Assembly (NCBI GenBank): GCA_016215025.1
Contig: JACRMI010000191.1
Location: 1-64,000, forward strand
DNA length: 64,000 nt
Reading direction: 5' to 3'
Source of the DNA: Chloroflexota bacterium
Lineage (GTDB): Bacteria; Chloroflexota; Anaerolineae; UBA4142
Shown: one piece after another, positions 467 to 21,103 of the stretch
Position numbering within the stretch: position 1 is the first letter of the stretch
How the letters are laid out: the number at the start of each line of letters is the position of its first letter
Translations under genes and position numbers: made by a program
The notes under the pieces: generated by a model
Databases searched by the model: none
The model's input: only the letters and a program-made list of their open reading frames with translations
Told to the model about the DNA's origin: nothing

Positions 467-495
467 TTGACTTTCCCCTGAATTCATCGTATATT
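467..495 (+). promoter_or_regulatory. Sigma70-type promoter of the ubiquitin-like cluster
   Basis: TTGACT at 467-472 is followed after exactly 17 bases by TATATT at 490-495. Five of six bases match the consensus in each box. The predicted start of transcription near 502 gives a leader of about 34 bases to the ATG at 536. No comparably good promoter was noticed between the following genes, although spacers of up to about 210 bases exist. Confidence 0.65.
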
Positions 496-535
496 CGGTT
501 TGCTGGTCTGACCACAGAACCAAAAGGATTGGCTA

Positions 536-2218
536 ATGAAAATTGATCCAGTCTCCCGAAACACTCTCCCGCGTTCGGTCGCCGAGCGCCTCCTGAAACT
601 CATCGCCGACGGCACCATCAAGCCCGGCGACAAAATGCCTTCCGAGCGCGACCTCATGGAACGCCTCAAGGTCGCCCGCTCGACCGTGCGCGAAGCATTG
701 CAAACCCTCTCTACCTCCAACATCATCGAAATCCGTCCCGGTGTTGGCGCGTTCGTCTGTCAAGATGTCCACGATCGCATTCCCGCCGCGCTTGAAGCAA
801 TTCAAAACCCGCATGCACTTCCACCCATCGCCAAATCGACTCTGCCCGATAACGGCAACGGCTCGCATCGCGTTCACATCGCCGGGCTTGCGCCGCTTCC
901 GCCTGCTCCCGACAAGCCGATTCACATTCCCAATTTGAAAACGGATCGGCTCGCCACATTCGAATTTATTTCGTGGTGGGAGCGCAGCAAGGTTCAAGCC
1001 GCGCGCGTGATGGTTATCGGCGCAGGCGCGCTCGGTAACGAAGTGTTGAAGAACTTGGCGCTGATGGGCGTTGGCAATTTATTCATCGTCGATTTTGACA
1101 CCATCGAAGCCGCAAACCTCAGCCGCTCGGTTTTGTTTCGCGCCGAAGACAACGGCAAAAAGAAAGCCGAAGTTGCCGCGCGTCGCGTCAAGGAATTGAA
1201 TCCCGATGTGCATGTCCAATATTTTCACGGCGATGTGAACACCGCCCTGGGTCTCGGTTTATTTCGACGGATGGACGCTATCGTCGGCTGTCTCGACAAT
1301 CGCGAGGCGCGCCTCTCGATCAATCGCTTTGCGTATCGCTTGAACAAACCCTGGGTCGATGGCGCGATTCAAGAATTGTTCGGTCTCGTCCGCGTGTTCG
1401 TCCCCGGTCAAGGCGCGTGCTACGAATGCACCTTGACCGAGCAAGCCCGCCGCGAAATGTCGCTCCGCTATTCATGCCCGCTCCTCGCGCGGCAAAATAT
1501 TTTGATGGGCAAGGTCCCCACCACGCCGACCAGTTCGTCGATCATTGGCGCGATGGAAGCGCAAGAAGCGCTCAAGCTGATTCACCACATGCCGGTCAAT
1601 GCCGGTCAAGTTACGCACGTCAACGGCTTGACGAACGATTTTCACACGACGGCGTACACGCCCGCCGAAGATTGCGAAAGCCACTGGGTCTATAGCGAAA
1701 TTACCGAATTGCCCAATCGCAAAGCCGCGACGACGACGGTGCTCGAATTCTTGCGCATCGCGCGCGAACAACTTGGCTCCGATGCGATCATCGAACTCGA
1801 CCAAGAGATCGTCACCCAGCTTGAATGTCATCACTGCGAAACCCTCACCGATGTTTTCAAACCAATCTCGCAAGTCAGTTACAACGATGGCTTGTGCCCC
1901 GGCTGCGGCGAGGTGCGCGAAGTTCACATGGCGCACACGGTCTCGGGCGACGAGCCATTCGTGCATCGCAGCTTGACGGCGGTTGGAATTCCACCGCTCC
2001 ACATCGTCCGCGTCCGCAACGATAAAGAGTACCGCTTCCTCGAACTCACCGGCGATCTCGCCGACACGTTGCACTGGTCGCACTTTGAAGGCGGCGCGCG
2101 GTCTGCTCATGCGAATCGGGTGCGCGTTCATCCGCGTCCGCAAATCAAATTGGGCGATGCTATCGCCGTTAGTACTCCGCCCGAAAAACTCGTCCGTCCA
2201 AAAATCGTCGTGCATTAG
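536..2218 (+). CDS. E1-like ubiquitin-activating enzyme fused to a GntR winged helix
   Basis: A 560-residue protein with an unusual layout. Residues about 10-75 are a GntR-type winged helix (PSERDLMERLKVARSTVREA core). Residues about 150-355 are a ThiF/E1 adenylation domain with the nucleotide loop GAGALG (162-167), the acidic residues after it, a CYEC pair (295-298) and Cys314 in RYSCPLL as a candidate thiolation cysteine. A C-terminal zinc ribbon follows (CHHC 431-434, CPGC 454-457), then an uncharacterised tail ending near an RPQIKL motif. E1 proteins adenylate the C-terminal glycine of a ubiquitin-like protein; the neighbours supply Ubl, E2, RING and JAMM partners. A DNA-binding head on an E1 is unusual and, with the palindrome at 451-464, suggests the enzyme also regulates its operon. 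The ATG has an AAAGGA Shine-Dalgarno. Which cysteine is catalytic is uncertain. Confidence 0.88.
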   Translation: MKIDPVSRNTLPRSVAERLLKLIADGTIKPGDKMPSERDLMERLKVARSTVREALQTLSTSNIIEIRPGVGAFVCQDVHDRIPAALEAIQNPHALPPIAKSTLPDNGNGSHRVHIAGLAPLPPAPDKPIHIPNLKTDRLATFEFISWWERSKVQAARVMVIGAGALGNEVLKNLALMGVGNLFIVDFDTIEAANLSRSVLFRAEDNGKKKAEVAARRVKELNPDVHVQYFHGDVNTALGLGLFRRMDAIVGCLDNREARLSINRFAYRLNKPWVDGAIQELFGLVRVFVPGQGACYECTLTEQARREMSLRYSCPLLARQNILMGKVPTTPTSSSIIGAMEAQEALKLIHHMPVNAGQVTHVNGLTNDFHTTAYTPAEDCESHWVYSEITELPNRKAATTTVLEFLRIAREQLGSDAIIELDQEIVTQLECHHCETLTDVFKPISQVSYNDGLCPGCGEVREVHMAHTVSGDEPFVHRSLTAVGIPPLHIVRVRNDKEYRFLELTGDLADTLHWSHFEGGARSAHANRVRVHPRPQIKLGDAIAVSTPPEKLVRPKIVVH

Positions 2219-2219
2219 T

Positions 2220-2240
2220 AGACAAATTGACAATTTGTCT
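2220..2240. repeat. Perfect 21-base palindrome between E1 and RING genes
   Basis: Ten-base arms (AGACAAATTG and its exact complement) surround a single A. It begins 2 bases after the E1 stop codon and ends 31 bases before the RING start. Related imperfect copies occur at 45122-45140 and 54808-54830, also just upstream of start codons, so it is a member of a dispersed family rather than a site private to this operon. It could fold as an RNA hairpin or act as an operator. Confidence 0.7.
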
Positions 2241-2271
2241 AACCGCATCCCGTTCGGAGCAGCCGCGTAGC

Positions 2272-3189
2272 ATGGAGAACCGTTCAACCACAAATTGGCG
2301 TTTGCGAATTGGTTTCGTACTAAGCGCGATGATCGGCATCGCGTGGGGCTTGCTCCTCGGCTGGACCGAAATTCGCGTCAACGCGTGGCTGTCGCCCTGG
2401 TATGTTCTCTTCGTCGGAATGCCCATCGCATTCTTCGGCAGCATGATCGTCGGCATGGTCGCGCACAGGATGCTCCTAAGCTGGCACAAGTTTGCGCGCT
2501 TGCTGGTCTCACTGCTGATGGTCGCCGTCGGTTTCCCGATCGGCTTGTTGTATGGCGTGTTCGCACATGGATATGAACCTTTTCAATTGATCCAAGAAAG
2601 TGGTCCAACCGTTTGGTATCTCGAATGGGCAATCGCCATCCTGGGTCTTTTCGGCGGCATGTGGCCCCGTTGGACGGTCCCATTTCTAAAATTGTTCGGA
2701 CGCTTCGGCGCATGGCTCTCGCAAGGACCACTCGCCATCTTGCGTTGGATCGGCGATAGAACGCTGGGTACTTTTGAAACTATCGGACACGCAATTTTCT
2801 GGCTGCCGACTCAAGCGTATCGCAAGGTCACATCGCTCTTCCAACGTCCGACGACAACGCGTGAACGCGAAACACCCGCATCTACACCTGCGCCAACAAC
2901 TGCACCTGAACCACCGTCTGCGCCACGACCGCCACGAACGACCACGTTGCGACGCCGCGCGAAAATGCTCAAGCCGCGCAAAGCACCAGTGGTGGCGAGG
3001 AACAATGGACACAATGGCGATTCACTGCGATTGACCGGCGTGGTGGAAGATCGATGTCCCTATTGTTTGGACGTCGTCAAGAAAAAAGATCCGCGGGGCG
3101 TCAAAAAGTGTGAAGTGTGCGGCACTCCGCATCACGCCGATTGTTGGGCAATCACAGGCAAGTGCCAAGTACCACATTTGAATACGTAG
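2272..3189 (+). CDS. Membrane protein with C-terminal prokaryotic RING finger (E3-like)
   Basis: The 305-residue product has about four hydrophobic segments in the first 150 residues, then a soluble, Pro/Thr-rich basic linker (about residues 185-255). The C-terminal 45 residues form a binuclear treble clef: Cys262 and Cys265 (CPYC), Cys280 and Cys283 (CEVC), His287/His288, Cys291 followed by Trp (HADCW) and Cys298, with His303 as a possible last ligand. This CPYC...C..C...HH..CW...C order is the prokaryotic RING signature described for bacterial ubiquitin-like operons. In eukaryotes RING domains hold charged E2 near the substrate, so a membrane-anchored E3-like role is inferred, with the finger most likely cytoplasmic. 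The frame can begin at a TTG at 2227 inside the palindrome, but the ATG at 2272 is the more plausible start. Confidence 0.8.
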   Translation: MENRSTTNWRLRIGFVLSAMIGIAWGLLLGWTEIRVNAWLSPWYVLFVGMPIAFFGSMIVGMVAHRMLLSWHKFARLLVSLLMVAVGFPIGLLYGVFAHGYEPFQLIQESGPTVWYLEWAIAILGLFGGMWPRWTVPFLKLFGRFGAWLSQGPLAILRWIGDRTLGTFETIGHAIFWLPTQAYRKVTSLFQRPTTTRERETPASTPAPTTAPEPPSAPRPPRTTTLRRRAKMLKPRKAPVVARNNGHNGDSLRLTGVVEDRCPYCLDVVKKKDPRGVKKCEVCGTPHHADCWAITGKCQVPHLNT

Positions 3190-3203
3190 AAATTACAAAT
3201 CCC

Positions 3204-3298
3204 TGTCATGCTGAGCGGAGCGAAGCATCCCGTTATCGGCAGAACGAGACCCTTCGCGGAGTTTATACTGAGCGAAGCGAACGTGCTCAGGGTGACAT
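3204..3298. repeat. Dispersed palindromic repeat, family A (tgtcatgctgagcgga type)
   Basis: An imperfect palindrome running from TGTCATGCTGAGCG to a closing GGGTGACA. Homologous elements are at 10044-10126, 23145-23217 and 57797-57878. It sits between the RING and Ubl-E2 genes. The rest of this 210-base spacer (about 3308-3385) is low-complexity, with runs such as 'ccaaccacctaaccaccc' and 'ctatctcactatcgcac'. When translated, such elements give false peptides like CHAERSEASR, so no gene is called here. Confidence 0.75.
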
Positions 3299-3399
3299 CG
3301 CTGAGTTACAAATGATAAATGACAAACCATCCAACCACCTAACCACCCAACTATCTTACTATCTCACTATCGCACTATTGCACCAACTCCGGAGGACTT

Positions 3400-4260
3400 A
3401 TGCCTGATCTCAATGTAACCCTAGTTTTACCCGCTGGTGGAGCACGCACCGCCGATGTGCCTGACGACGTGCCTATCCGCGAACTTTTGCCAGAACTCAT
3501 TTCGGTGCTAGAGTTGCCCACCACCGGTCCCGACGGTCGCCCGATGGGTTATCGCTTGGATAGCAAATCGCTGGGGCGCGAGTTGAAGGAAAGCGAGACG
3601 CTCGCCGAAGCGAAGGTGCCGCAGGGTGATCGATTGATGATTACGGCAGATGTGACCGCGGGCGCTGGCAAATCGCTCGTCACCGCAAGTCCGCGCTTTC
3701 GCCGCCTCAAAGCCGATTACGAAAAATTGCTGGAATTGAAAGCGCACAGCGACATTATCGATTTTGAAACCGTCGATGTGAAACCTGGCTCGCCGCCAGA
3801 AAAATATATCGTCACGTTCAAGTGTAAGAGCATTGTCGGCGTCGATGCGTTCGGCAATCCGAAATTCGGCGACCGTCACCAAGTCGCAATTTATTTGCAC
3901 AACGAATACCCACATCGCTGGCCCGGCTTGAAATGGCTCACGCCGATTTGGCATCCGAACATCAAAGGCGCGAATGGCAGCGTCTGCATCGATGCCGCGT
4001 GGTGGACGGCGGCGCGCTCGCTCGACCGCTTGGTCGTGATGCTGGGCGAGATGGCGCAGTGGAAAAATTTCCACGACGATCCGACCAAGCCGCCCTTCCC
4101 CTGGGATGCCGAAGCCGCCAAGTGGAGCGCGAACTATCGCAAGAAACATCCCGATGCTTTTCCGGTTGATAAGAGTGAACTGTTACGTCCAGAGCGCATC
4201 AAGATCAAGACCGAGCCGGCGGCTCCGGCAAAACCAAGACCGAAGATCAAGTTGAAATAA
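3400..4260 (+). CDS. Ubl-E2 fusion: ubiquitin-like domain joined to a UBC-fold conjugating enzyme
   Basis: A 286-residue protein. Residues 1-88 are a ubiquitin-like beta-grasp domain that matches the free Ubl encoded next at 67 of 88 positions by my count, including the closing TADVTAG. After a short AGKSLV linker, residues about 98-255 form an E2 (UBC) domain with the HPN motif at 185-187 and catalytic Cys196 in GSVCID, the usual spacing. The lysine-rich tail contains RIKIK and RPKIKLK. An E2 takes the activated Ubl from E1 as a thioester and, with the RING, passes it to lysines. The fused Ubl could be a built-in regulator, a docking site, or a precursor cut from the E2 by the JAMM peptidases; the sequence cannot separate these. 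A GGAGG ribosome site lies 6 bases before the ATG. Confidence 0.88.
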   Translation: MPDLNVTLVLPAGGARTADVPDDVPIRELLPELISVLELPTTGPDGRPMGYRLDSKSLGRELKESETLAEAKVPQGDRLMITADVTAGAGKSLVTASPRFRRLKADYEKLLELKAHSDIIDFETVDVKPGSPPEKYIVTFKCKSIVGVDAFGNPKFGDRHQVAIYLHNEYPHRWPGLKWLTPIWHPNIKGANGSVCIDAAWWTAARSLDRLVVMLGEMAQWKNFHDDPTKPPFPWDAEAAKWSANYRKKHPDAFPVDKSELLRPERIKIKTEPAAPAKPRPKIKLK

Positions 4261-4268
4261 CCCCGTTT

Positions 4269-4304
4269 GTAGTGAGCGATTTATCGCTCCATCGCACACT
4301 ACGA
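4269..4304 (+). other. Hairpin between Ubl-E2 and Ubl genes
   Basis: GTAGTG and CACTAC bracket an inner AGCGAT/ATCGCT pair, giving a stable RNA hairpin directly after the Ubl-E2 stop. There is no T-run, so a full terminator is unlikely. It could protect an mRNA end. Confidence 0.4.
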
Positions 4305-4333
4305 ACCAATTCAAATCTTTACGGAGGTGCCAA

Positions 4334-4600
4334 ATGGCAGATGTACCAGTGACCGTGATTCTTCCCGCCGGTGGTTCTCGCACCGCTGAAGTTCCCGACG
4401 ATGTACCTGTGCGCGAGCTGCTCCCCGAACTGACTTCGTCATTGCAACTCCCCACCACGGGACCCGATGGTCGCCCGATGAATTATCGGGTGGATAGTAA
4501 AGCACTTGGACGCGAGCTGCGCGAAGACGAAACGCTGACCGCGGCTGGCGTACCGCAGAACGACCGCCTCATGCTCACCGCCGACGTGACGGCTGGATAG
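4334..4600 (+). CDS. Free ubiquitin-like modifier (Ubl), 88 residues
   Basis: A single beta-grasp domain of 88 residues that ends exactly at ...ADVTAG. It is nearly the same as the N-terminal domain of the adjacent Ubl-E2 protein (about 76% identity by eye). The fold most resembles the YukD/EsaB-like group of bacterial Ubls, an inference from pattern alone. The protein ends in Ala-Gly rather than Gly-Gly, with no residues after the glycine, so it should be ready for E1 activation without trimming. It is the expected substrate of the E1 and E2 in the same operon. A GGAGG Shine-Dalgarno lies 6 bases before the ATG. Conserved lysine is scarce (one, in the DSKALG segment), so chain building would have few sites. 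Confidence 0.85.
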   Translation: MADVPVTVILPAGGSRTAEVPDDVPVRELLPELTSSLQLPTTGPDGRPMNYRVDSKALGRELREDETLTAAGVPQNDRLMLTADVTAG

Positions 4601-4608
4601 ATTTTGTC

Positions 4609-4650
4609 GGGGCGGGTCCTTCGACGGCGCCGTTCAGGATGACCCGCCCC
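4609..4650 (+). other. GC-rich hairpin between the Ubl and FHA-JAMM genes
   Basis: GGGGCGGGTC at 4609-4618 pairs perfectly with GACCCGCCCC at 4641-4650 around a 22-base loop. It begins 8 bases after the Ubl stop and has no T-run. Such a stem could hold the 3' end of an upstream transcript and so raise Ubl output relative to the downstream peptidases. Confidence 0.55.
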
Positions 4651-4666
4651 CCACCACGAGGATTGA

Positions 4667-5752
4667 ATGTATCGCGCGCTGTCGCTCATGCCGCTCAAAC
4701 AAGAAAATACTGCTCCAGTCGTTCACGAACTGAACGCCGATTCGACCAAGATCGGCGCGGCAGATGACAACGCCATTGTGCTTACCGACAAGAGCATCTC
4801 GCCGCATCACTTGGAGATTCGCCACGACGACGGCATCGATCATCTCGTCGTCGACTTGGCAGAACGCTGGCGACGACACGATGCGACCTGGTTCCAGTTT
4901 CGCGATGGCGATGCCTATTGGTGTCCGCGTCATGGCAACGTGAGTCAACTCGACGAACGCAACTGGTGCCCGACGTGCAAACACAAACGTGGCTCGCTCT
5001 GGCTCATTCGCCCGCTTCATCCCGGCGAAACGTTCGACATCGGCAAGGCCTATCGCGCGACCTATCTCTTGCAAGAGCGCGCGCCGAAAATCGAACCGGA
5101 CACCAGCGCAGCACCTGCACCTAAACAACTCTCAATTCCGCCCGCAGAAGAAGCGATTCCTGTCTGTGCGATGCCCTTGGACGATTCAAACCTGTGGCGG
5201 TGGCAGCCCGCAGGCATTCCTTTTCCAATTTTTATGCATCACCGCGTCAATGTGGCGATTACACAACACGCGCGCGAATATTCAGATCGCGAAGTGGGCG
5301 GCGTACTCCTCGGCGATGTGAAACGCGACGAGCACGGACAAATGTACGTCGTCGCAACGCACGCGATCAAAGCTGAATTTGCAGACGAGACGCGCGGGCA
5401 CATCACGTTTACGCACAACACCTGGCTCCAAATTCACCGTGCGCGTGAACGATTACAACCGGATAAAATTATCGTCGGTTGGTATCACACGCACCCTGGC
5501 TGGACGATTTTTCTCTCGCAATGGGATTTATTCATTCATACAAGTTTTTTCAGGGCGCCTTGGCAAATCGCACTCGTCGTCGATCCATCCCTCGACCGGG
5601 CTGGGTTCTTCGTGTGGAAAGATAACCAAGTCAATAGCCCGCATAAACCGATCGAACCATTCCGGCTTGCGGAGATCGATGGATGGGCGGATACAGTTAA
5701 ACCCCGCGTGCGAATCAAATTGACCGATACGGTTTCACCTGTCAAAGGATAA
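4667..5752 (+). CDS. FHA-JAMM (MPN/Mov34) metallopeptidase, deconjugase candidate
   Basis: A 361-residue protein. Residues about 1-135 resemble a forkhead-associated fold (KIGAADDNAIVLTDKSISPHH). An insertion carries CPRHG (86-90) and CPTCKH (101-106), which could bind zinc. After a Pro/Ala linker, residues about 185-325 are a JAMM domain with Glu209 (REVGG), the HxH pair His274/His276 in WYHTHP, Ser284 and Asp287: a complete zinc-peptidase set. JAMM enzymes cut the isopeptide or peptide bond after the Ubl C-terminal glycine. FHA domains bind phosphothreonine, so recruitment of this peptidase to phosphorylated partners is a reasonable inference. The tail holds RVRIKL. The stop is 6 bases before the next JAMM gene, so the two are surely co-translated. 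Confidence 0.85.
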   Translation: MYRALSLMPLKQENTAPVVHELNADSTKIGAADDNAIVLTDKSISPHHLEIRHDDGIDHLVVDLAERWRRHDATWFQFRDGDAYWCPRHGNVSQLDERNWCPTCKHKRGSLWLIRPLHPGETFDIGKAYRATYLLQERAPKIEPDTSAAPAPKQLSIPPAEEAIPVCAMPLDDSNLWRWQPAGIPFPIFMHHRVNVAITQHAREYSDREVGGVLLGDVKRDEHGQMYVVATHAIKAEFADETRGHITFTHNTWLQIHRARERLQPDKIIVGWYHTHPGWTIFLSQWDLFIHTSFFRAPWQIALVVDPSLDRAGFFVWKDNQVNSPHKPIEPFRLAEIDGWADTVKPRVRIKLTDTVSPVKG

Positions 5753-5758
5753 ACACCC

Positions 5759-6409
5759 ATGTCACGCATAAAACTCGCGGAACTTGTTCCGGTTCAATAT
5801 GAGGAAAAACCAATGCCAATCCAAGATTCTCTCAAATGGGCTTCGCGGTACGAAGATCAAGTCGGGTCGCACGTGCAAATCTTTTTCATCCAGTCCGCGC
5901 ACCAAAAATGTGTCGAGCATGTCAATAGCTCGATGGATCGCGAAGTGGGCGGTGTCCTAGTTGGAAACGTTCAATTCGATCCCATCGAATTGCAAACGTA
6001 CGTGACCATCGACGATGTGATTCCGGCGTTGTTCACCAACTCCGGCGAGACGCACGTCACATTCACGCAAAACACCCTGGTCGATTTGAACAGTCGAATG
6101 GACGAATCCTACCCCGGCAAAAGCATCGTCGGATGGTATCACACGCATCCGCGTCTCGGCGTATTCCTGTCGAATCATGACACGTTCCTGCATCGTCACT
6201 TTTTCCCCGACCCAACCCACGTCGCGCTCGTCGTCGATCCGTACTATAGACGTGCGGGATTCTTTTGCTGGCAAAACGGCAAGACACTCGACCCAGCCAA
6301 GTACGTGGGCTTTTACGAAACGAGCGACATGGACGACCACAGTATCGTCGAATGGGAAAATCTAGAGCCGGTAATTCCCGTCGTGCAAGAGCAGCAACAG
6401 GAGAATTAG
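5759..6409 (+). CDS. Second JAMM (MPN) metallopeptidase, stand-alone
   Basis: A 216-residue JAMM protein with the full active-site set: Glu62 (DREVGG), His128 and His130 in WYHTHP, Ser138 and Asp141. It is a clear paralogue of the JAMM domain just upstream, without the FHA head, and begins with SRIKLAEL. The C-terminus is acidic and Gln-rich. Two JAMM enzymes in one operon suggest division of labour, for example Ubl-E2 processing against substrate deconjugation, but nothing in the sequence assigns the roles. Confidence 0.82.
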   Translation: MSRIKLAELVPVQYEEKPMPIQDSLKWASRYEDQVGSHVQIFFIQSAHQKCVEHVNSSMDREVGGVLVGNVQFDPIELQTYVTIDDVIPALFTNSGETHVTFTQNTLVDLNSRMDESYPGKSIVGWYHTHPRLGVFLSNHDTFLHRHFFPDPTHVALVVDPYYRRAGFFCWQNGKTLDPAKYVGFYETSDMDDHSIVEWENLEPVIPVVQEQQQEN

Positions 6410-6414
6410 GGGTT

Positions 6415-6563
6415 GAGACGGGCGAATGAATTCACAGCGACCGCTTCGCGTCACGAAATCCGCCTTCGCGGATTAGACAATAGTCTGCGGACTATAGCTC
6501 CGTTGAGAAGCGGAGTGCGGGCAGACTTTGTGAACTGGTTGCAGCGACTTGAGTCGCCCGGTC
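6415..6563. repeat. Dispersed repeat, family B, copy 1
   Basis: About 145 bases with the blocks GGGCGAATGAATTC, GAAATCCGCC, TAGTCTGC...GCAGACTTTGTG and GTTGCAGCGACTT. The same blocks in the same order occur at 11012-11137. It fills the spacer between the second JAMM and the FHA membrane protein. Confidence 0.65.
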
Positions 6564-6576
6564 CAAGGAGAACCAC

Positions 6577-7434
6577 ATGAGTCTTCGAATGCGAGCGTAC
6601 TATTACGCGATATTGGGCGCGATTGGCGCGTTGATTGGTTGGCGCATTACGGACACGTTGGGCTTTCGCGCACCGAATGTTTACGTCAGCGACATTTTGC
6701 TCGGCGGCATCATCGGCTTGTGCCTCGGCTTGCTCATCGGCGCGAGCGAAGGATTGCTAGGGCAGTCGTGGTTCCGCGCGGCACGTGCGGGCGCAATCGC
6801 AGGCGGCATTGGTTTGGTGGCAGGCGCGATTGGGCTGCCCATCGGCGAATTTTTTTTCCAAGTCACTGGTGGTGAACTCATCGGACGCGCCTTGGGCTGG
6901 GGATTGTTTGGACTGCTCGTCGGCTTGTCGGAAAGTTTCACCAGTCGCACGCAAATGTGGAAAGGCGCAGTCGGCGGTTTGATCGGCGGCTTGGTCGGCG
7001 GTATCGTGCTCTACATTTTGCAATCGGCCGCGGGCGTAACCGCATTCGGCAAGATGCTGGGATTGATCGTGATGGGCGCATCGGTTGGCGTATTCATCGC
7101 GTTGATCGTCGTGATTCTTTCCAAAGCATGGATCGAGGTCAAGAGCGGAAAACTCAAGGGCAATGAATTCATCCTCGACAAGTTCATGCCGGAGCATGGA
7201 CCCGCTGCGATCATCGGCAGCAACGATTTCAAAGCGGACATTGCCCTGCCCGATCCCGGCATGGCTCCGCAGCACGCACGCCTCAAAGGCGCTGGCACGC
7301 ATTTCATGATCGAAGACATGAGCATTGGACAAGGAACGTTCGTCAACGGTCGCAAAGTGGAAATAACGCGACTCACCAACAATGCGGTCATCAAGTTGGG
7401 CAACACCGAGTTGGTTTATCACGAACGACGATAA
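6577..7434 (+). CDS. Polytopic glycine-rich membrane protein with C-terminal FHA domain
   Basis: A 285-residue protein. The first ~185 residues are Gly/Ala/Leu/Ile-rich, with about six hydrophobic segments and repeated GGxxGxxxG patterns of the glycine-zipper kind. Residues about 195-283 form an FHA domain (IGSNDFKADIALPDPGMAPQHARL, then GTFVNGRKV), the usual phosphothreonine-reader pattern. The FHA domain is probably cytoplasmic, making a membrane platform for phosphorylated proteins. Together with the FHA head on the JAMM enzyme it suggests that Ser/Thr phosphorylation is linked to this ubiquitin-like pathway, although no kinase gene is seen here. An AAGGAGA ribosome site precedes the ATG. 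Confidence 0.75.
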   Translation: MSLRMRAYYYAILGAIGALIGWRITDTLGFRAPNVYVSDILLGGIIGLCLGLLIGASEGLLGQSWFRAARAGAIAGGIGLVAGAIGLPIGEFFFQVTGGELIGRALGWGLFGLLVGLSESFTSRTQMWKGAVGGLIGGLVGGIVLYILQSAAGVTAFGKMLGLIVMGASVGVFIALIVVILSKAWIEVKSGKLKGNEFILDKFMPEHGPAAIIGSNDFKADIALPDPGMAPQHARLKGAGTHFMIEDMSIGQGTFVNGRKVEITRLTNNAVIKLGNTELVYHERR

Positions 7435-7522
7435 TTCCTCGCCCTGGCAGGGAGAGGTTAGGTGAGGGTGCAATTAGCCCTCACACAAACCGTCGAACAG
7501 GAGAGGGAGTAGGAGACATCCA

Positions 7523-8758
7523 ATGAAAAGATTACTCTTATCTTTCGTTTTCGCAATCGCATTTTGCTCGCTGGCGGTGTTGAGCGTCAGCGCGCAAGCA
7601 CCGATGAATATTACCGTGACACAAGTTGACCAATCGCGCTTTCCGCAAATCGATGTGTTCGTTTCGGTAACGGATACGAATGGCAATCCGGTACGCAACG
7701 TAGCGCCGAATGCTTTTCAACTCCAAGAAAATGGCAAGCCGATTGCATTGACGGCGGCAACACATGCAGGCGAATCGAACCCGGTCAGCACCGTACTGAT
7801 TATCGATCATAGCGGCAGTATGGCATCGGCTGGAAAGATGACGGCGGCAAAACAAGCCGCGAGCGCGTTCGTCAACCACATGCGTCCCGGCGACAAGACC
7901 GCACTGATTCAATTCGATACCGAGATCGAAACGCTGCAAGCATTCACGGAGGACAAGAATGCACTGCTCGCGGTGATTCAAAAAATCGTGCCGCGTGGCA
8001 ACACGGCGATTTACGATGCGGTCAATCAAGCCGCCAAGTATTTCGAAGCAACGCAAGGCCGCAAGGACATTATTCTCGTTACCGACGGCATGGACAACGC
8101 CAGCAAGATCAATCGCGAGACGATTGTCGATAAGGTGAGCAAGAGCGGATTCTCAATCAACACGATTGGGTTGGGCGCGAAAGGCGCAGGCTATGGAAGC
8201 CAAGATGGGATCGACGAAACCGTATTGCAGGACCTAGCACATGCGTCGATGGGTACGTACTATTATCGCCCCGATGCAGCGCAATTGAGCGAACTGTATC
8301 AACAACTGTCATTCTTGATTCAGAACGAGTACAAACTCACCTACACATCGACCAGTCCGTTGCGCGATGGTGTCAAACGCAACATCGTGGTCACCGCGCC
8401 GGGCGCAGCCGCCACGCAAACGACGTTCAATCCGGGCGGCGTGATTCCCGAAGCTGAATCGCAGCTATCGTCCTGGGTCATGTTCGCAATCGCATTGCTC
8501 GTGTTGCTTGGACTATTCTTCTTGCCGTTGGGCTTGCAAATCGTGCGCGAGCGTGGAGTCAATCTGCCCGCATTGCCAACCCCTCAGGCGGCATTACCCG
8601 CAGCACCGCCCAAACCGAGCCGCGTGAAACTCACCGGCGACGCGCCGACCGCTTCAGCAACAACATCCACCCGCCAGCGCATCAAGATCAAACAGTCGTC
8701 TGGAGCAACGCGTTCGCAGAACACAATGCCCTGGGACGAAGGCGCAGATAAGCACTAG
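7523..8758 (+). CDS. Membrane-anchored von Willebrand factor A (VWA) protein
   Basis: A 411-residue protein with an N-terminal signal peptide (about 1-25, ending VSAQA), an extracytoplasmic N-terminal segment, and a VWA domain from about residue 90 with the MIDAS motif DHSGSM. A transmembrane helix follows near residues 318-340. The cytoplasmic tail is basic and holds RVKL and RQRIKIKQ, like the tails of the Ubl-E2 and JAMM proteins. VWA domains bind protein ligands through a metal ion. Genes of this type accompany FHA and TolB-like proteins in many Chloroflexota operons. The preceding 88-base spacer carries a GTGAGGG/CCCTCAC hairpin. Confidence 0.8.
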   Translation: MKRLLLSFVFAIAFCSLAVLSVSAQAPMNITVTQVDQSRFPQIDVFVSVTDTNGNPVRNVAPNAFQLQENGKPIALTAATHAGESNPVSTVLIIDHSGSMASAGKMTAAKQAASAFVNHMRPGDKTALIQFDTEIETLQAFTEDKNALLAVIQKIVPRGNTAIYDAVNQAAKYFEATQGRKDIILVTDGMDNASKINRETIVDKVSKSGFSINTIGLGAKGAGYGSQDGIDETVLQDLAHASMGTYYYRPDAAQLSELYQQLSFLIQNEYKLTYTSTSPLRDGVKRNIVVTAPGAAATQTTFNPGGVIPEAESQLSSWVMFAIALLVLLGLFFLPLGLQIVRERGVNLPALPTPQAALPAAPPKPSRVKLTGDAPTASATTSTRQRIKIKQSSGATRSQNTMPWDEGADKH

Positions 8759-8861: not shown

Positions 8862-9911
8862 ATGCCAAACGCATTTGAGAACATGCCGGATGTCGGCAAG
8901 AAAAAGATGGCGCAATCACAATCTAAACCGAATCGGACTCCGCTCATTATTGGTGCGGTGGGTGGATGTTTATTGTTGTTGCTCTGTGTCGTGCTCGGTG
9001 TTGGGGGTTGGTTCATCTGGTCGTCAACGCAAGCCAAGACTGGAACTGCGGTCACGAATCCGAACGCACCAACCGCTCCTGGTTCGGGACAACCTTCGGG
9101 TGCAAACAATGCAAGCAAGCCGGTTCGCATCGCGGCGAGTGTTGATCGCGGCGCATTCGTCGAACAAAAATTGATCTGGCTGCTCTATTCCGATGGCAGC
9201 GAACCGAAGCAATTGTTGACGCAAGCATCCTCGCCAGTCTTTTCACCCGATGGCTCGATGGTGGCGTACTATCACTGGACGGACGGCATCTATATCGCCA
9301 ATAGCGATGGTTCCAATCCGCGCAAGATTTTGGGTGAAACCAACGCCAAGTATCTGGCATGGTCGCACGATGGCCGATGGATTGCGTTCACATCGCAAAC
9401 GAGCCAGCGAGAAAATGCGCCGACCAACATCGACGCAATCAAAGTCGATGGCACGAGTCGCCGCAATCTCGTCATGGGCGGAACGCAACCGACCTGGTCG
9501 CCGGACGATACGATGATCGCCTTTTCGACATGTCGTGGCTCGGACTGCGGCATCTACATAGCCAGCTCGGCAGGTGGTGACACCGGCACATTGGTGATCG
9601 GCGGTTTAGGCTCCAGTCCGGCGTGGTCGCCGGCCGGGAACAAAATCGTCTATCAAGCCGACACCGATGGTGTTAAGCAATTGTTCGTCGTCAATCCCGA
9701 CGGTAGCGGAAAAAAACAAATCACAAGCGGCACAAATCCGCACGTTGGCGCGCAATGGTCGCCGGATGGCACTACGATTTATTATCGCGCACCCGAAGGC
9801 GGCAACTGGGGCATTTGGAAAATGAATGCCGATGGCAGCAATCCAACGCGCATCGCGAACGATTTTCCGCCGGTCGATTGGGCATATGAACGATTAGCCC
9901 TGGGCAAGTAG
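8862..9911 (+). CDS. Membrane-anchored TolB-like beta-propeller protein
   Basis: A 349-residue protein with a short cytoplasmic N-terminus, one transmembrane helix (about 27-55) and an extracytoplasmic Thr/Ala/Pro linker. From about residue 95 there are about six TolB/WD40-like blades recognisable by FSPDGSMVAY, WSHDGRWIAF, WSPDDTMIAF, WSPAGNKIVY and WSPDGTTIYY. Such propellers are usually protein-binding surfaces. It follows the VWA gene after a 103-base AT-rich spacer of the 'acacagataaacacagatt' type and ends in front of a strong terminator, so it is probably the last gene of the operon. The choice of ATG rests on the AAAGGAGG ribosome site just upstream. Confidence 0.75.
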   Translation: MPNAFENMPDVGKKKMAQSQSKPNRTPLIIGAVGGCLLLLLCVVLGVGGWFIWSSTQAKTGTAVTNPNAPTAPGSGQPSGANNASKPVRIAASVDRGAFVEQKLIWLLYSDGSEPKQLLTQASSPVFSPDGSMVAYYHWTDGIYIANSDGSNPRKILGETNAKYLAWSHDGRWIAFTSQTSQRENAPTNIDAIKVDGTSRRNLVMGGTQPTWSPDDTMIAFSTCRGSDCGIYIASSAGGDTGTLVIGGLGSSPAWSPAGNKIVYQADTDGVKQLFVVNPDGSGKKQITSGTNPHVGAQWSPDGTTIYYRAPEGGNWGIWKMNADGSNPTRIANDFPPVDWAYERLALGK

Positions 9912-9925
9912 AAAACAAAAAATAG

Positions 9926-9965
9926 AAAAACCGCCGACTCTTTGCTGAAGAATCGGCGGTTTTTC
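9926..9965 (+). terminator. Rho-independent terminator of the ubiquitin-like cluster
   Basis: AAAAACCGCCGA pairs with TCGGCGGTTTTT over a 15-base loop, followed by further T-rich DNA. It starts 15 bases after the TolB-like stop codon. Confidence 0.85.
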
Positions 9966-10020
9966 TATTTACGCTTGACCTGTCTGCCGATTGGTTTATA
10001 CTTTGCTCGCGTGTCATTGC

Positions 10021-12464: not shown

Positions 12465-15400
12465 TTAGTCACTTTTGCCATTGGGGTGACATGCCACGCA
12501 ATTGGTCAAGTTGGTAATTTTCTTCTCGGCGTGCTTTTTCACTATTTCAGTTTGGTTGTGGCAACCATAACACGTATAGGCAGGTGGACTGCTTGGATGG
12601 CACTTGCTGCACTGGTTATTTGCGTGACCATGTGTCGTTGGGAACGTATGCTTGAAATTCGCCGGTTTCCACGCCATCGTCGTATGACATTGCGAACACT
12701 GTCCCGAATAGTGATTGGCGGGACGCTTGTTCGCATGACAGCTTTGGCAGTCCGTAAAGCCGCTGTGATTGAACGTCGCCGGTTTCCACGCGGTTGTAGT
12801 GTGACATGACGAACACTGACCTTGATAGTGGTTCGGTGGACGCTTTGCCAAGTGACAGCTTTGGCAATCGGTTTGCCCCGCATGATTGAAGGTCGCCGGC
12901 TTCCATGCAGTCGTCTTATGACATTGCGAGCATTGACCCGCATAGTGATTCGCAGGTTTATTTTTTGTGTGACAACTCTGGCAGTCCGGAAAACCGGTAT
13001 GATTGAACGTCGCCGGTTTCCACGCGGTTGTGGTATGGCACGACGAACACTGACCGGTATAGTGATTCGGCGGACGCTTGCTCAGGTGACAACTCTGACA
13101 ATTGGTTTGTCCGGTGTGATTGAATGTTGCCGGTTTCCACGCGGTTGTCCTGTGACACTGCGAACATTGCCCCGCATAATGGTTCGCGGGTTTGTTTTTC
13201 GTATGGCAACTTGCACAATCGGTTTGTCCGGTATGGTTGAACGTCGCCGGTTTCCAAGCCGATGTAGTGTGGCACGACGAACACTGACCGGCGTAATGGT
13301 TCGGTGGACGCTTGGTCAAGTGGCAGCTTTGGCAATCGGCCTGACCGGCATGATTAAAGGTCGCCGGTTTCCACGCGGTCGTTTTGTGACATTGCGAGCA
13401 TTGACCGGTGTAATGGTTCGCCGGTTTGTTTTTCGTGTGACAACTCTGGCAGTCCGTGAAACCGGTGTGATTGAACGTCGCCGGTTTCCATGCGGTTGGA
13501 GTATGACACGTCGAACACTGGCCGGCGTAATGGTTCGCGGGCTTGTTCTTGGTATGGCAGCTTTGACAATCTGCTCCTGGCGTATGATTGAACATGGCAG
13601 GTTTCCATGCGCCGGTCGTATGACACGTCGAACACTGGCCTTGATAATGATTCGGTGGACGCTTGTTTAGATGGCAAGACTGGCAATCAGTCTTGCCGGT
13701 GTGATTGAACGTCGCCGGTTTCCAAGCCGATGTGGTATGGCAGGTCGAGCATTGACCGGCATAGTGGTTCGCCGGTTTGTTTTTCGTATGACAACTCTGA
13801 CAATCAGTCTTGCCGGTGTGATTGAACGTCGCCGGTTTCCAAGCCGATGTGGTATGGCACGACGAACACTGACCATCGTAATGATTCAATGGTTTTTTGT
13901 TGGCATGACAGCTTTGACAATCAAGCTGCCCAGTGTGATTGAAAGTTGCCGGCTTCCACGCCGTCGTCGAATGACACGTCGAGCATTGCCCTTGATAGTG
14001 GTTCAGCGGTCGAACATTGCTGTGACAAGTCTGACAATTGGCGGTTGGTGTGTGTTTGAAATTAGCGGGTTTCCACGCCGTCGTCATATGACATTGCGAG
14101 CATTGACCGGCGGCATGATTCGCCGGTTTTTTGTTGAGATGGCAACTCTGGCAATCGGTTTGTCCGGCATGAGTGAACGTCGCCGGCTTCCACGCCGTTG
14201 TGGTATGACATGACGAACATTGCCCTGTGTAATGGTTCGCTGGTTTCTTGTTCGTATGGCAGCTCGCGCAATCCGTTTGTCCGGCATGGTTGAACGTCGC
14301 CGGTTTCCACGCACTCGTCGAGTGACATTGCGAACACTGACCCGCAAAGTGATTGGGGGGCTTTTTGTTCGTATGACAACTTGCGCAGTCGGTTTGACCA
14401 GCGTGATTGAACGTCGCCGGTTTCCACGCGTTGGTCGTGTGACACGTCGAACATTGACCGGCGAAATGCTGCGGCGGACGACCGTGGCAAGCTTGGCAAT
14501 CGACGAAACCGGTGTGGTTCATCTTGGCGTTGCTCCACGTTGCCGTCGTATGGCACAGCGAACATTGACCGGCGAAATGGTTCGCGGGTTTCTTTTTCGT
14601 ATGGCAACTCGCGCAATCGGTTAGCCCCGTGTGGTCCATCTTCGCGGGCTTCCACGCCGCGGTGGTATGACACGTCGAGCATTGACCCGCAAAATGATTC
14701 GCCGGTTTATTTTTGGTATGGCAACTCGCGCAATCGGTTTGCCCCGCGTGATTAAAGTGCGCGGGTTTCCAGACTGTGACCGAGTGACAATCAGAACACT
14801 GACCCGCAAAGTGATTCGCCGGTTTCTTGTTCGCGTGACAACTCGCGCAATCGGTCAAGCCAGCATGATTGACCTTGGCAGGTTTGAACGCGACGGTGGT
14901 ATGGCAACGTTCGCATTGCTGTCCATATAGTTTTTTATGCGGGTCTTGATGGCACGAGGCGCAATCGCGCGGCGTTCCGGCATAGCTGCCATTCGCATGA
15001 CATTTCTCGCAAGTGACGGTCGCATGTGCGTCATTTAATGGAAACGAGTGTTTGAATCCTGACGGGAGTGGAATCGCACGGGGATCGACCGAACTATTGA
15101 ACGGCGATGCTGATGCGATTTGAATCGGGAGATCGAGCGTCAAGTCGGCCAACGCGCGCAAATCATCGGCGGTGATATTGGGGTCTTCGCTCGCCAACTG
15201 AATCTTTTCGGCTTTGTCGTTGAACTTGGCGAGCACACCTTCGTCGTTCGACAACGAACTCGACGAGAGAATCTGCTTTGCCCCGGCAATCCAATTGGCA
15301 ATCGCGCGCAAGTACGCGCTGCGTTGGTTTGTTGGCAAATCAGCGATTGCGATCAAGGCACGATTCACCGCCTCGTCGAAATAGCCGAGCGCGAGAATTT

Positions 15401-15656
15401 CGTACGGCGTGGCAATGCGTGCGCTCAAGTCATTCAATCGATGCGGGACGCGATTGACGATTTCCTGAATGCGCGTGGCATCATCGCGCGCCATTGAAAT
15501 GTTGAGCGCTTCAGTGGAAAGACGAACAGGGAATAGGGAATCGCCCGGCAAGGCATGCTCGATGATCGTTTGGGCAGCGGCGAGACTTGCCACACCGATC
15601 AGCAGGATAATAAGGATGGCAGAGCCAAAGAGCAGGAAAATTCGGGACTTGACCAT
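12465..15656 (-). CDS. Giant multihaem cytochrome c with 44 CxxCH motifs
   Basis: A 1063-residue exported protein. Residues 1-28 are a signal/anchor (KSRIFLLFGSAILIILLIG). Residues about 30-180 resemble the DUF5667 helical domain (ALPGDSLFPVRL). The rest is CxxCH haem-binding sites; I count 44. Hits 4-41 are arranged as 19 tandem units of about 39 residues, each with two CxxCH sites and a WKPA(T/K)FNH segment whose histidine could be a distal ligand. The start codon is chosen at 15656 because its ATG overlaps the oxidoreductase stop (TGATG); the frame extends upstream into that gene. It is probably the last, extracytoplasmic carrier of the electron-transfer operon, able to move electrons over a long distance. 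Confidence 0.88.
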   Translation of the reverse strand: MVKSRIFLLFGSAILIILLIGVASLAAAQTIIEHALPGDSLFPVRLSTEALNISMARDDATRIQEIVNRVPHRLNDLSARIATPYEILALGYFDEAVNRALIAIADLPTNQRSAYLRAIANWIAGAKQILSSSSLSNDEGVLAKFNDKAEKIQLASEDPNITADDLRALADLTLDLPIQIASASPFNSSVDPRAIPLPSGFKHSFPLNDAHATVTCEKCHANGSYAGTPRDCASCHQDPHKKLYGQQCERCHTTVAFKPAKVNHAGLTDCASCHANKKPANHFAGQCSDCHSVTVWKPAHFNHAGQTDCASCHTKNKPANHFAGQCSTCHTTAAWKPAKMDHTGLTDCASCHTKKKPANHFAGQCSLCHTTATWSNAKMNHTGFVDCQACHGRPPQHFAGQCSTCHTTNAWKPATFNHAGQTDCASCHTNKKPPNHFAGQCSQCHSTSAWKPATFNHAGQTDCASCHTNKKPANHYTGQCSSCHTTTAWKPATFTHAGQTDCQSCHLNKKPANHAAGQCSQCHMTTAWKPANFKHTPTANCQTCHSNVRPLNHYQGQCSTCHSTTAWKPATFNHTGQLDCQSCHANKKPLNHYDGQCSSCHTTSAWKPATFNHTGKTDCQSCHTKNKPANHYAGQCSTCHTTSAWKPATFNHTGKTDCQSCHLNKRPPNHYQGQCSTCHTTGAWKPAMFNHTPGADCQSCHTKNKPANHYAGQCSTCHTPTAWKPATFNHTGFTDCQSCHTKNKPANHYTGQCSQCHKTTAWKPATFNHAGQADCQSCHLTKRPPNHYAGQCSSCHTTSAWKPATFNHTGQTDCASCHTKNKPANHYAGQCSQCHRTTAWKPATFNHTGQTNCQSCHLSKRPPNHYTGQCSSCHTTTAWKPATFNHTGFPDCQSCHTKNKPANHYAGQCSQCHKTTAWKPATFNHAGQTDCQSCHLAKRPPNHYQGQCSSCHTTTAWKPATFNHSGFTDCQSCHANKRPANHYSGQCSQCHTTMAWKPANFKHTFPTTHGHANNQCSKCHPSSPPAYTCYGCHNQTEIVKKHAEKKITNLTNCVACHPNGKSD
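12640..14930 (-). repeat. Tandem 117-base repeats coding for di-haem units
   Basis: About 19 consecutive copies of a 117-base unit (39 codons). Units differ mostly in a short KNKPANHYAG/KRPPNHYQG segment that alternates along the array. One unit near 14480 is shortened (GRPPQH replaces the longer spacer). Such arrays are prone to unequal recombination and to collapse in assemblies, so the copy number is the least certain feature of this gene. Confidence 0.85.
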
Positions 15657-17026
15657 CAAACTCCCAGGGGGTACGCCGGCAACCGCACCGGTGTTCGTCG
15701 CCAGCGCTCCCAAAAGCCCCGGAGCGTTTGACTGAGCGACGCGTTGTTTGTGTTTTGCAACTGTGATCGAATCGATGAAATATCTATTCGGTTACCCACC
15801 AAATCCCGCAATGGGTCCGTTATGTCCTGAACTCCTAGAATGAGTGCACCAGCAATTTGATTTCCGCGCAATACTAGACGAATCGAATTGTCGCCTTTGT
15901 GACTCCACGCGCTGGTGTAGGGTCCGCCGGGTCGCGCCCACCACACTTCGGACGAGCCGCGCGATTGATATTGCAGCGTTTCATTTTCGTCGTCGGCACT
16001 GCGATTGCCCGTCCCAGCTTGTCCGATTGACGTGACATGCACCCCGAATATTAACGCCGCATTGAACGGCACATCCTTGATGTAGGCGGCGCGCGCACCG
16101 ACCATGTTCGCGCCAGCCATGCGACCGGCAGCTATCGCCGAGGGCCACAAATCGTCCACACGGTATTCGCCCGACCAATGATCGAAAACTTGCGCCGCAT
16201 CCCCCGCCGCGAAAATATTGGGCGCAGATGTTTCCAAAAATTCGTTGACGACGATTCCTCGATCAATTCTCAATCCAGCATTCTTTCCCAGCATAACATT
16301 TGGTCGCACGCCGATTCCCGCGCCGACAAGATCGCACGGAATGAATTGACCGCTCGTCGTCTTAACCGCCGATACACACCCATGCGCTCCAATAATCTCT
16401 GCGATTTCTTCGTTGTAATGAATGTGAATGCCCGTCATGCGCGCGTGACTCTCGATGATTTGCGATTCGTCGTTTGTCAACAGCGCCGACCAAATCGTTT
16501 TCTTGCGCAACAGGTAATGCACCGTCAAGCCGCGATGTGCCAAACCCTCCGCCATTTCCATCGCCGTGATGCCGCCACCAACGACAACAGCAGTCCGCGC
16601 ACCGGTTTGCACGCGGCGCAAAATATCCTGCACGTTCTTGAGCGTATCGAGATAAACGACGCCGTCGAGTTGGCTGCCGGGAAAAGTCGCCGGGACCGCT
16701 GTTGCACCGGTAGCAAGCAGCAATGCGTCGTACGGCAACAATTTGCCATCCGCCAATTCGATCACTTGTCGATCGGGATGAATCGCCGCGACGCGCGCAA
16801 ACATCAATTCCAAACCACGTTCGGCATAGTATTCCCGCGTGCGACAGAAAATGCGACTATCCGGTATTTCGCCCATCAACACGTACGCCAAACCAGGACG
16901 CGAGTACATCGGATACGGTTCGTCCGTGATGATCGTGATTGACGCAAACGGGTCATGGCGGCGAATCTCTTCCGCTGCCGTCATGCCAGCCGCTCCATTT
17001 CCAATGATGAGGTGTCGAGTGGGCAT
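15656..17026 (-). CDS. FAD/NAD(P)-dependent oxidoreductase (NirB/rubredoxin reductase-like)
   Basis: A 456-residue flavoprotein. It has the FAD dinucleotide loop GNGAAG at the N-terminus, a central NAD(P)H loop GGGITAME (about 148-155) and the second FAD motif NIFAAGDAAQ (about 275-284), as in the Pyr_redox_2 family. The last ~50 residues are not recognisable. It starts 3 bases after the iron-sulfur gene and its stop overlaps the start of the 44-haem gene, so it is firmly in the operon. It probably links NAD(P)H to the iron-sulfur protein; there is no signal peptide, so it is cytoplasmic. Confidence 0.82.
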   Translation of the reverse strand: MPTRHLIIGNGAAGMTAAEEIRRHDPFASITIITDEPYPMYSRPGLAYVLMGEIPDSRIFCRTREYYAERGLELMFARVAAIHPDRQVIELADGKLLPYDALLLATGATAVPATFPGSQLDGVVYLDTLKNVQDILRRVQTGARTAVVVGGGITAMEMAEGLAHRGLTVHYLLRKKTIWSALLTNDESQIIESHARMTGIHIHYNEEIAEIIGAHGCVSAVKTTSGQFIPCDLVGAGIGVRPNVMLGKNAGLRIDRGIVVNEFLETSAPNIFAAGDAAQVFDHWSGEYRVDDLWPSAIAAGRMAGANMVGARAAYIKDVPFNAALIFGVHVTSIGQAGTGNRSADDENETLQYQSRGSSEVWWARPGGPYTSAWSHKGDNSIRLVLRGNQIAGALILGVQDITDPLRDLVGNRIDISSIRSQLQNTNNASLSQTLRGFWERWRRTPVRLPAYPLGV

Positions 17027-17936: not shown

Positions 17937-18953
17937 CTACTCTTTCTTTTTGCCCGTCGCATGACACTTTAAACAATTCTGATAATCGGGAATATTCGCT
18001 TTGATATGGACGGTTGCCATATTTTTTTGCGTATGTTCGTGACAACTATAGCAGGTGTTAGTTGCGTAATTCGTCGGATGGCAAACTTTGCAATCCGAAT
18101 CTTTGCTCTTGTTGCCATGATCGAACGGAAACGAGTGCTTGATAAGTCGAGCGGGACGCCAACCCTGAGCAGTATGGCACGCGGCGCAATTGGTACCGAA
18201 TTGTCCAAGATGCACCTTGGGATCGGCGTGACACGCCACGCAATTGGTCGGCGTGCCGCGATAGCGATCCTTCACATGACATTTCGTGCACGCGACGTTA
18301 GCATGTTTGCCGTCAAGCGCAAACACCGTTGCATGATCGAAATCTTTTAATCGATCCGTACCATCGTGGCACGCGACGCACGCTTCGCCCATCTGTTTGC
18401 GATGATCGGCGATGAACATCGCATCTTTTTCTTGGTGACACTTGACGCATGCGGCGCGGACATTCGCCGATTCGATCTTTTGGTCTTGCCCAAACGCATG
18501 ACACGCACGACATGTCAGCGCGGTCTGATTGTAGTCGCGTTGATGATTGATCAGGGAAAAGCCAAATTGATTGTGCGGGAAAACATCGGGCGAGGTACGG
18601 GTGAGATTGGCAGTACGCCCTTTATGATCGACATGACATGCAGCACAATCGGTCGCGTTGCGCAGGACTCCGTGAATGCCTTGCGCTTGCGTGATTTGAT
18701 CGCGCACGTCATTGTGACATTGGACGCACTGCTCTGCGTCGGGTCCGTGAAACGGCGTGTGACACAAATCACAGCGCGTTTCGAAATCGGCATGAGAAAC
18801 AAAATTTTGAATCGGTCGCGCTTGAGGATGATCGGCGGAAAGCGCGCCAGGAGAAAATGGCGTACCGCCTGCGACCGCGACAATGGCTAACAAACACGTG
18901 ACCAAGATGAGCGTCGCGCCACAACCCAAAACCGATCCCAGGTGCTTGGTCAA
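17937..18953 (-). CDS. Dodecahaem cytochrome c (12 CxxCH)
   Basis: A 338-residue exported cytochrome. An N-terminal hydrophobic segment (about 10-28) is followed by 12 CxxCH sites that I count (CDLCH, CVQCH, CAACH, CRACH, CVKCH, CVACH, CTKCH, CVACH, CAACH, CKVCH, CYSCH, CLKCH) and many extra histidines for bis-His ligation. The C-terminal part (KHSFPFDHG...CKVCHP...CYSCH) is like the end of the 44-haem protein, so the two share ancestry. The start is TTG, immediately after the TAG of the b-type subunit gene (TAGTTG). Confidence 0.85.
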   Translation of the reverse strand: MTKHLGSVLGCGATLILVTCLLAIVAVAGGTPFSPGALSADHPQARPIQNFVSHADFETRCDLCHTPFHGPDAEQCVQCHNDVRDQITQAQGIHGVLRNATDCAACHVDHKGRTANLTRTSPDVFPHNQFGFSLINHQRDYNQTALTCRACHAFGQDQKIESANVRAACVKCHQEKDAMFIADHRKQMGEACVACHDGTDRLKDFDHATVFALDGKHANVACTKCHVKDRYRGTPTNCVACHADPKVHLGQFGTNCAACHTAQGWRPARLIKHSFPFDHGNKSKDSDCKVCHPTNYATNTCYSCHEHTQKNMATVHIKANIPDYQNCLKCHATGKKKE

Positions 18954-20007: not shown

Positions 20008-20036
20008 TTGTGATTGAGTAACATTCGCAGTATAAT
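20008..20036 (+). promoter_or_regulatory. Promoter of the binding-lipoprotein operon
   Basis: TTGTGA at 20008-20013, a 17-base spacer and a consensus TATAAT at 20031-20036. Transcription should begin near 20043, which excludes the frame start at 20014 and supports the ATG at 20086. Confidence 0.65.
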
Positions 20037-20085
20037 GAATTTGGAGTTCTTGTATGCAAAAATTCGTATGCTGACGAAAGGAAAA

Positions 20086-21096: not shown

Positions 21097-21103
21097 AAGA
21101 CAA

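Follow-up and report, generated by a model that had tools for sequence, protein, structure and literature searches.

The first 64,000 nucleotides, forward strand, of contig JACRMI010000191.1 from a Chloroflexota bacterium (assembly GCA_016215025.1; Anaerolineae, UBA4142), hereafter the window, open at the contig start with an operon for what appears to be a complete ubiquitin-like conjugation system: an E1, a membrane RING protein, an E2, a free ubiquitin-like modifier (Ubl) and two JAMM proteases, in the company of FHA and VWA proteins. We think it likely that these products conjugate the Ubl reversibly at the cytoplasmic face of the membrane, and that the E1, to which a GntR-type DNA-binding domain is fused, is the transcriptional repressor of its own operon.

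Genes, domains and conservation of the operon

All genes of the operon are on the + strand, those from E1 to VWA spanning 536-8758 of the window, and a sigma-70-type promoter, TTGACT-17-TATATT (467-495, + strand, 10/12 matches), precedes them. An earlier note on this DNA had claimed a complete E1/RING/E2/Ubl/JAMM set on one strand behind one strong promoter, with its key residues visible, and gene calls, promoter and domain searches all agree with it. Pfam supports every named domain (ThiF 5.9e-57 and GntR 7.8e-20 in E1, UQ_con 6.4e-10 in E2, YukD 1.5e-11 in the free Ubl, JAB 1.3e-12 and 2e-11 in the two JAMM proteins, FHA 6.5e-12, VWA 3.2e-20); no NCBIfam model scored above its cut-off for E1, RING, E2, Ubl or JAMM. 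The residues in question are GAGALG 162-167 and Cys314 of E1, HPN 185-187 and Cys196 of E2, the eight zinc ligands of the RING protein and, in the two JAMM proteins, the sets Glu62/His128/His130/Ser138/Asp141 and Glu209/His274/His276/Ser284/Asp287, catalytic and metal residues being invariant across the alignments of relatives. Three labels held as far as they went: the E1 is a ThiF E1, but its GntR winged helix-turn-helix (wHTH) and the operator had been overlooked; the E2 has a UBC domain with HPN and Cys, but is in fact a Ubl-E2 fusion; and the first JAMM protein also carries an FHA domain. The shared tail motif and the absence of proteasome and type VII secretion components, both dealt with below, likewise go beyond that note.

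The E1 (536-2218, +) consists of the GntR wHTH, a linker, the ThiF adenylation domain (residues about 139-380), a C-terminal domain and a tail with IKL motifs. Cys314, invariant in 31 E1s, is in the crossover loop, and its low confidence in the AlphaFold model is what would be expected of a mobile loop of that kind. By sequence comparison the best solved relatives are UBA7, UBA1 and SAE2 (7e-29 to 2e-23), while with Foldseek the model matches UBA5, ThiF and UBA3-NEDD8. C295, C298, C380 and H383 are putative zinc residues, and C431, C434, C454 and C457 form a second putative site in the C-terminal domain, possibly a ubiquitin-fold domain, for which AlphaFold gives a confident mixed alpha/beta structure with no separate Foldseek assignment.

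The free Ubl (4334-4600, +) is a YukD-type protein of 88 residues whose AD[VI]TAG-stop end, ADVTAG in the window, is present in 73 of 75 relatives; it is acidic, with a mean net charge of about -8. A second YukD-type copy forms residues 1-88 of the E2 protein (3400-4260, +), where TAG is retained at the junction and is nearly always followed by a small residue and a variable linker. In a tree the free and fused copies split with 1 of 116 tips misplaced, which makes the duplication an old one. Cleavage by a JAMM behind TAG may release a second Ubl together with the E2, though the fused Ubl may just as well act non-covalently; in one locus (L050/G011) the E2 has no fused Ubl. The E2 itself is of the classical UBC type with invariant HPN and Cys196 and a C-terminal PRPKIKLK motif, and its best solved relative is UBE2K (3.5e-11). 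For the JAMM it is the archaeal Rpn11-like 6fju (3.5e-10). The FHA-JAMM protein (4667-5752, +), in which CxxC pairs separate the two parts and which carries a C-terminal RVRIKL motif, is followed by the second JAMM protein (5759-6409, +), also complete in metal and catalytic residues. Then come a polytopic membrane protein with a C-terminal FHA domain, here termed TM-FHA (6577-7434, +), and the VWA protein (7523-8758, +), with a signal peptide, an outside VWA domain with DxSxS, one transmembrane segment (311-329) and a cytoplasmic tail with RVKL and RIKI motifs. The beta-propeller protein, TolB-like and membrane-anchored (8862-9911, +), is probably the product of the last gene of the same transcription unit, because a strong intrinsic terminator, bidirectional-looking and with a 20-pair stem, stands 3′ of it at ~9922-9968. 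FHA, VWA and propeller partners had all been named before, and Pfam backs them.

Between E1 and E2 lies the gene for the RING protein (2227-3189, +, probable start ATG 2272), a putative E3 with at least three transmembrane segments and, at about 3046-3174, a C-terminal C4HC2H binuclear domain. Is that domain of the kind that an E3 would need? Prok-RING_1 matches the full protein at 2.4e-6 and the domain alone at 6.5e-8, above the curated cut-off; it is the best match in all 32 homologues, in which the ligands C, C, C, C, H, C, C, H are invariant, and there is no other Prok-RING_1 in the window's genome. The gene adjoins E2 in nearly all loci, and the CP[YF]CL[ED] stretch of the protein is akin to the E2-contacting CPICLE stretch of RINGs. 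AlphaFold predicts a confident small fold (predicted local distance difference test score 91.7) that has PHD, RING and C1 binuclear treble clefs as its nearest Foldseek relatives, with weak scores. We rate as rather unlikely the alternative of a treble clef of the PHD or adaptor type that is no ubiquitin-type E3, with the E2 acting on its targets directly: PHD fingers do lead those weak structural matches, and a PHD model is also matched weakly by 19 of the 32 members, but Prok-RING_1 is preferred in every one of them, and the CPICLE-like stretch and the place beside E2 point the same way. From the Prok-RING_1 match and fold, that stretch and the adjacency we infer that the RING protein acts as E3.

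How widely is the operon retained? The earlier note had proposed a neighbourhood search across Chloroflexota, and a scan of one genome per species yielded 217 loci, the best 80 of which underlie the locus counts given here. All 80 are from Chloroflexota, mostly Anaerolineales and related groups, and the cultured carriers among them are Leptolinea tardivitalis, Leptolinea sp. HRD-7 and Pelolinea submarina. By protein search an E2 or Ubl part was found in 14 of 400 genomes of the phylum, and by alignment search the E2 in 48 of 396 genomes of the class. The order E1, RING, Ubl-E2, Ubl, JAMM, TM-FHA, VWA, the same in about 80 genomes, recurs in almost all loci with enough sequence, and this seven-gene order is retained far beyond chance. 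The extra FHA-JAMM gene is limited to six loci (L041-L044, L108, L117), and the propeller after VWA to two near relatives (L042, L044); for both genes, the few carriers are mostly close to the window's own lineage. A distant form, family f8 (L037 6344-16821, L038 3396-12639), combines an E1 that lacks the GntR part with unfused Ubl and E2, two JAMMs and Prok-RING_1 proteins (two in L037); genes for a dynamin-like GTPase and a CAP-domain protein are nearby. In another class of the phylum a YukD-like domain is N-terminal on WD40-repeat membrane proteins (L039 9115-9996, L040 8616-10151), with no E1 or E2 nearby.

A candidate operator and the GntR domain of E1

The wHTH comprises E1 residues about 10-75 (Pfam GntR match 13-74), and the E1 N-terminus also matches solved GntR/FadR structures. 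The putative DNA-contacting residues R38, R48, R52 and E53 are nearly invariant in the alignment of E1 relatives, the three arginines being counterparts of residues that touch DNA in FadR. The usual GntR effector domain (FCD, UTRA etc.) is not present C-terminally, its place being occupied by the E1 enzyme, and no report of a GntR-E1 fusion was found in the open-access literature.

What might such a domain bind? At the presumed transcription start, 8 bp past the -10 box and 21 bp upstream of the E1 start codon, lies the palindrome TGGTCTGACCA (504-514, +), a candidate FadR/GntR-type operator that occurs once in the 7.74 Mb genome. Counting the window, upstream DNA could be read in 69 loci; in these, TGGTNNNACCA is upstream of E1, mostly by 24-42 bp, exactly in 56 and with at most one mismatch in 65, against a background in the same loci of 0.5% and 2.4%, respectively. 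The consensus extends to outer half-sites, TGGT.T..TGGTCTGACCA..ATACCA, and TATAAT-like boxes, where found in relatives, most commonly end 8-11 bp upstream of the operator, a relative position that would suit a repressor. In eight other genomes with the operon the site is found in few copies, one of them at the operon and the others near chance level; with the single copy here, this led to rejection of the operator as a genome-wide regulon site. L037 and L038, with E1s devoid of the GntR part, have no operator at E1. A GntR wHTH, R38/R48/R52 and a site of the TGGTNNNACCA type are the traits of a FadR/GntR regulator that are present, and from the GntR domain in E1 together with the conserved and genome-unique palindrome at the promoter, an E1 dimer is probably the autorepressor of its operon. 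Ubl loading is hypothesized to be the release signal. In one clade the operator is changed, e.g., to TGGTATACGTGGCATACCA in L117, which lets the co-evolution of recognition helix and site be examined.

Could the GntR part be a relic, or regulate other genes, with the E1 having no part in control of the operon? A fused DNA-binding domain could in principle act on another target, and the binding of E1 to the operator is a prediction. Nevertheless this is improbable in view of the near invariance of R38, R48, R52 and E53, and of a palindrome that is at the promoter in 65 of 69 loci, has a single genomic copy and is missing where the GntR part is missing.

A shared basic motif and the proposed pathway

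A short basic motif, KPxIKLK-like, is common to the non-homologous E1, E2, JAMM and VWA proteins. Its definition as [KR][IV][KR][LIV] came from inspecting a handful of tails, after which the count was extended to all the proteins; the motif is in 76 of 80 E2 C-termini (local shuffles mean 6.4, maximum 14; 4.8% of control open reading frames), in 61 of 75 E1 tails (shuffle mean 3.8), in 53 of 66 VWA tails (shuffle mean 3.7) and in 6 of 6 FHA-JAMM tails; it is absent from Ubl (0/77) and at background level in TM-FHA. The simplest reading is that it would be a Ubl-binding motif resembling a SUMO-interacting motif, though TM-FHA or acidic lipids may be the docking partners instead. Through this motif E1, E2, the JAMMs and VWA probably all bind a single partner, for which the acidic Ubl is the best candidate.

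In the pathway that we propose, the E1 would adenylate the C-terminal Gly of the free 88-residue Ubl and then hold the Ubl as a thioester on Cys314, from which it would pass to Cys196 of the E2, and the membrane RING protein would carry the charged E2 to membrane-proximal targets. The JAMMs would strip the tag, and may also split the E2 from its fused Ubl at the TAG junction; the FHA domains probably pick partners marked by phosphothreonine, while the VWA domain would sense, or report from, the outside. An E1 dimer, bound through its GntR domains to TGGTCTGACCA at the transcription start, would keep the operon low until Ubl loading, or another signal, lifts it off. Whether the GntR-E1 reads its own Ubl loading and so sets the levels of E2, E3, modifier and JAMMs, with the tail motif bringing E1, E2, JAMMs and the VWA sensor together on either the acidic Ubl or a single membrane partner, is in our judgement evenly balanced. 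What the sequences show are the domains, residues, gene order, operator and motif conservation, and the lack of a proteasome in the genomes tested; each reaction step, the autorepression, the docking partner and the targets are deductions.

Several points weigh against this pathway. The conjugation itself is predicted from genes, domains and residues. The relatives are not independent, and locus counts overstate significance. The Ubl has one terminal Gly where ubiquitin has GG; a single C-terminal Gly is known for UFM1 and ATG12. At JAMM N-termini the enrichment of the motif is weaker (22 of 74, shuffle mean 1.3), and L083, L108 and L117, the clade with the changed operator, retain the GntR part without the standard site. 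E1, UBC, JAMM and binuclear treble-clef folds emerged from the comparison of sequences and structures, but structure does not discriminate between RING and PHD-like, no Foldseek match to the RING model being below E 0.001.

What fate would a tagged protein meet? No proteasome (PF00227) was found in any of the 12 operon genomes tested; a proteasome link was rejected on that basis, and tagging in these cells probably does not mark proteins for a proteasome. A type VII secretion role of the YukD domains was also rejected: the window's genome has no WXG100 protein and no YukD domain apart from the operon's two. We regard membrane signalling or quality control as more likely than defence for the role of the operon in the cell.

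Alternative roles, known systems and biological meaning

An anti-phage role of the Bil/Bub/CBASS-conjugation kind, with phage or immune proteins being tagged, is quite improbable. The E1 and JAB parts have a superfamily signal with the PADLOC E1-E2, BilD (7.6e-8) and BilC (8e-6) models, and bacterial E1/E2/JAB operons studied to date are mostly defence or suspected defence (PMC13373217). However, there is no PADLOC match for the E2, Ubl, RING, FHA or VWA parts, the E2 and Ubl families of Bil and Bub included, though PADLOC 2023 may lack Bub models, and filing under Bil/Bub was rejected with matches at superfamily level only. The gene order is stable, and in loci with enough flank the operon adjoins rplJ/L/K (20 of 57) or lexA (17 of 57), not mobile islands; its regulator is built into E1, in place of separate CapW/CapH/CapK-type neighbours. 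Viral contigs and phage records hold no relative of the E2, and with one distant plasmid match only, a mobile or viral origin was rejected. That match is an annotated E2 (NC_019754.1:40563-40970, 28%) on a mobilizable plasmid of the cyanobacterium Crinalium epipsammum. That the Ubl is instead a sulfur carrier or cofactor-pathway protein and the E1 a ThiF/MoeB homologue, with no protein conjugation, is extremely improbable, for although the E1 scores well with the ThiF and MoeB models it is far below their curated cut-offs, and the operon, which is free of cofactor genes, encodes a RING, two JAMMs and a genuine UBC domain complete with HPN and Cys.

The kind of operon to which we assign the reversible conjugation pathway is already known by prediction. 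Bacterial E1/E2/RING/JAMM operons were predicted in 2011 (Burroughs, Iyer, Aravind, Mol Biosyst 7:2261, via PMC4197634), related ones being listed for Actinobacteria, Planctomycetes and Acidobacteria (PMC4197634), and a paper of 2017, which credits bacteria with "some examples of complete operons", reconstituted an archaeal cascade (PMC5654768). The earlier description as little studied fits the searchable open literature, where no experimental study of the Chloroflexota operon was found among open-access papers, but needs those two qualifications. The 2011 operons, as outlined in PMC4197634, have in common with ours a YukD-type Ubl, an E1 with a C-terminal extension, a classical E2, a RING and a JAB, and their traits of a YukD Ubl with exposed C-terminal Gly, an HPN/Cys E2, a RING beside E2 and a JAMM are found here; relative to that outline, the Chloroflexota form differs by its fixed seven genes, GntR-E1, Ubl-E2 fusion, membrane RING, FHA/VWA partners and operator. 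The operon of Caldiarchaeum subterraneum (PMC5654768, PMC6043591) also brings together E1, E2, a small RING, a modifier and an Rpn11-type JAMM, but its modifier is a true ubiquitin, a pro-form with GG, in contrast to a YukD-type Ubl ending TAG and a membrane RING; a GG-ended ubiquitin and a proteasome link, traits of archaeal and eukaryotic ubiquitin, are missing here. Bil, Bub and CBASS Cap2/Cap3 likewise have a bacterial E1, E2 and JAB that act on a Ubl or a C-terminal Gly, but with other E2 families, a defence context and separate regulators CapW, CapH/P and CapK/S (PMC13373217). The UFM1 pathway (UBA5-UFC1) is alike in its single-ThiF, homodimer-type E1 and a modifier with a single C-terminal Gly, UBA5-type E1s being among the best Foldseek matches, but is eukaryotic with other E2 and E3 types. 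We know of no GntR domain on the Caldiarchaeum E1, nor of a RING in Bil, Bub or CBASS Cap2/Cap3 systems. The operon had also been called close to eukaryote-style, and this is borne out in that the nearest solved relatives of its E2, E1 and JAMM, those given above, are eukaryotic for E2 and E1 and archaeal for JAMM, and not Bil/Bub/CBASS proteins.

Elsewhere in the window, at 12465-15713 on the - strand, is the gene for a very large multihaem cytochrome, a repeat protein of 1082 residues with 44 CxxCH haem-binding motifs, which adjoins ferredoxin-type and NAD(P)H oxidoreductase genes; a second protein (17937-18953) has 12 such motifs. Three tandem paralogous genes at 20014-23139 (+) encode lipoprotein-like substrate-binding proteins of about 340-360 residues each, by eye NMT1/THI5-like.

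We know of no precedent for the presumably self-regulating E1, for the fusion of Ubl to E2 or for the shared motif, and the E1 with its operator, the fusion and the tail motif lift the operon above a routine new member of its kind. To our knowledge, too, most bacterial Ubl systems investigated to date serve in defence and lack a RING E3. The lineage described here, in which 12 of 12 genomes tested have no proteasome, has stably retained a compact and complete set, with a built-in probable regulator and a defined putative operator. With cultured species available, the role of E1/E2/RING/JAMM pathways where there is no proteasome, and the sensing of a Ubl pool, become directly testable. If the proposed pathway is right, it would be a bacterial, non-proteasomal Ubl-signalling pathway at the membrane, of a type without experimental description.

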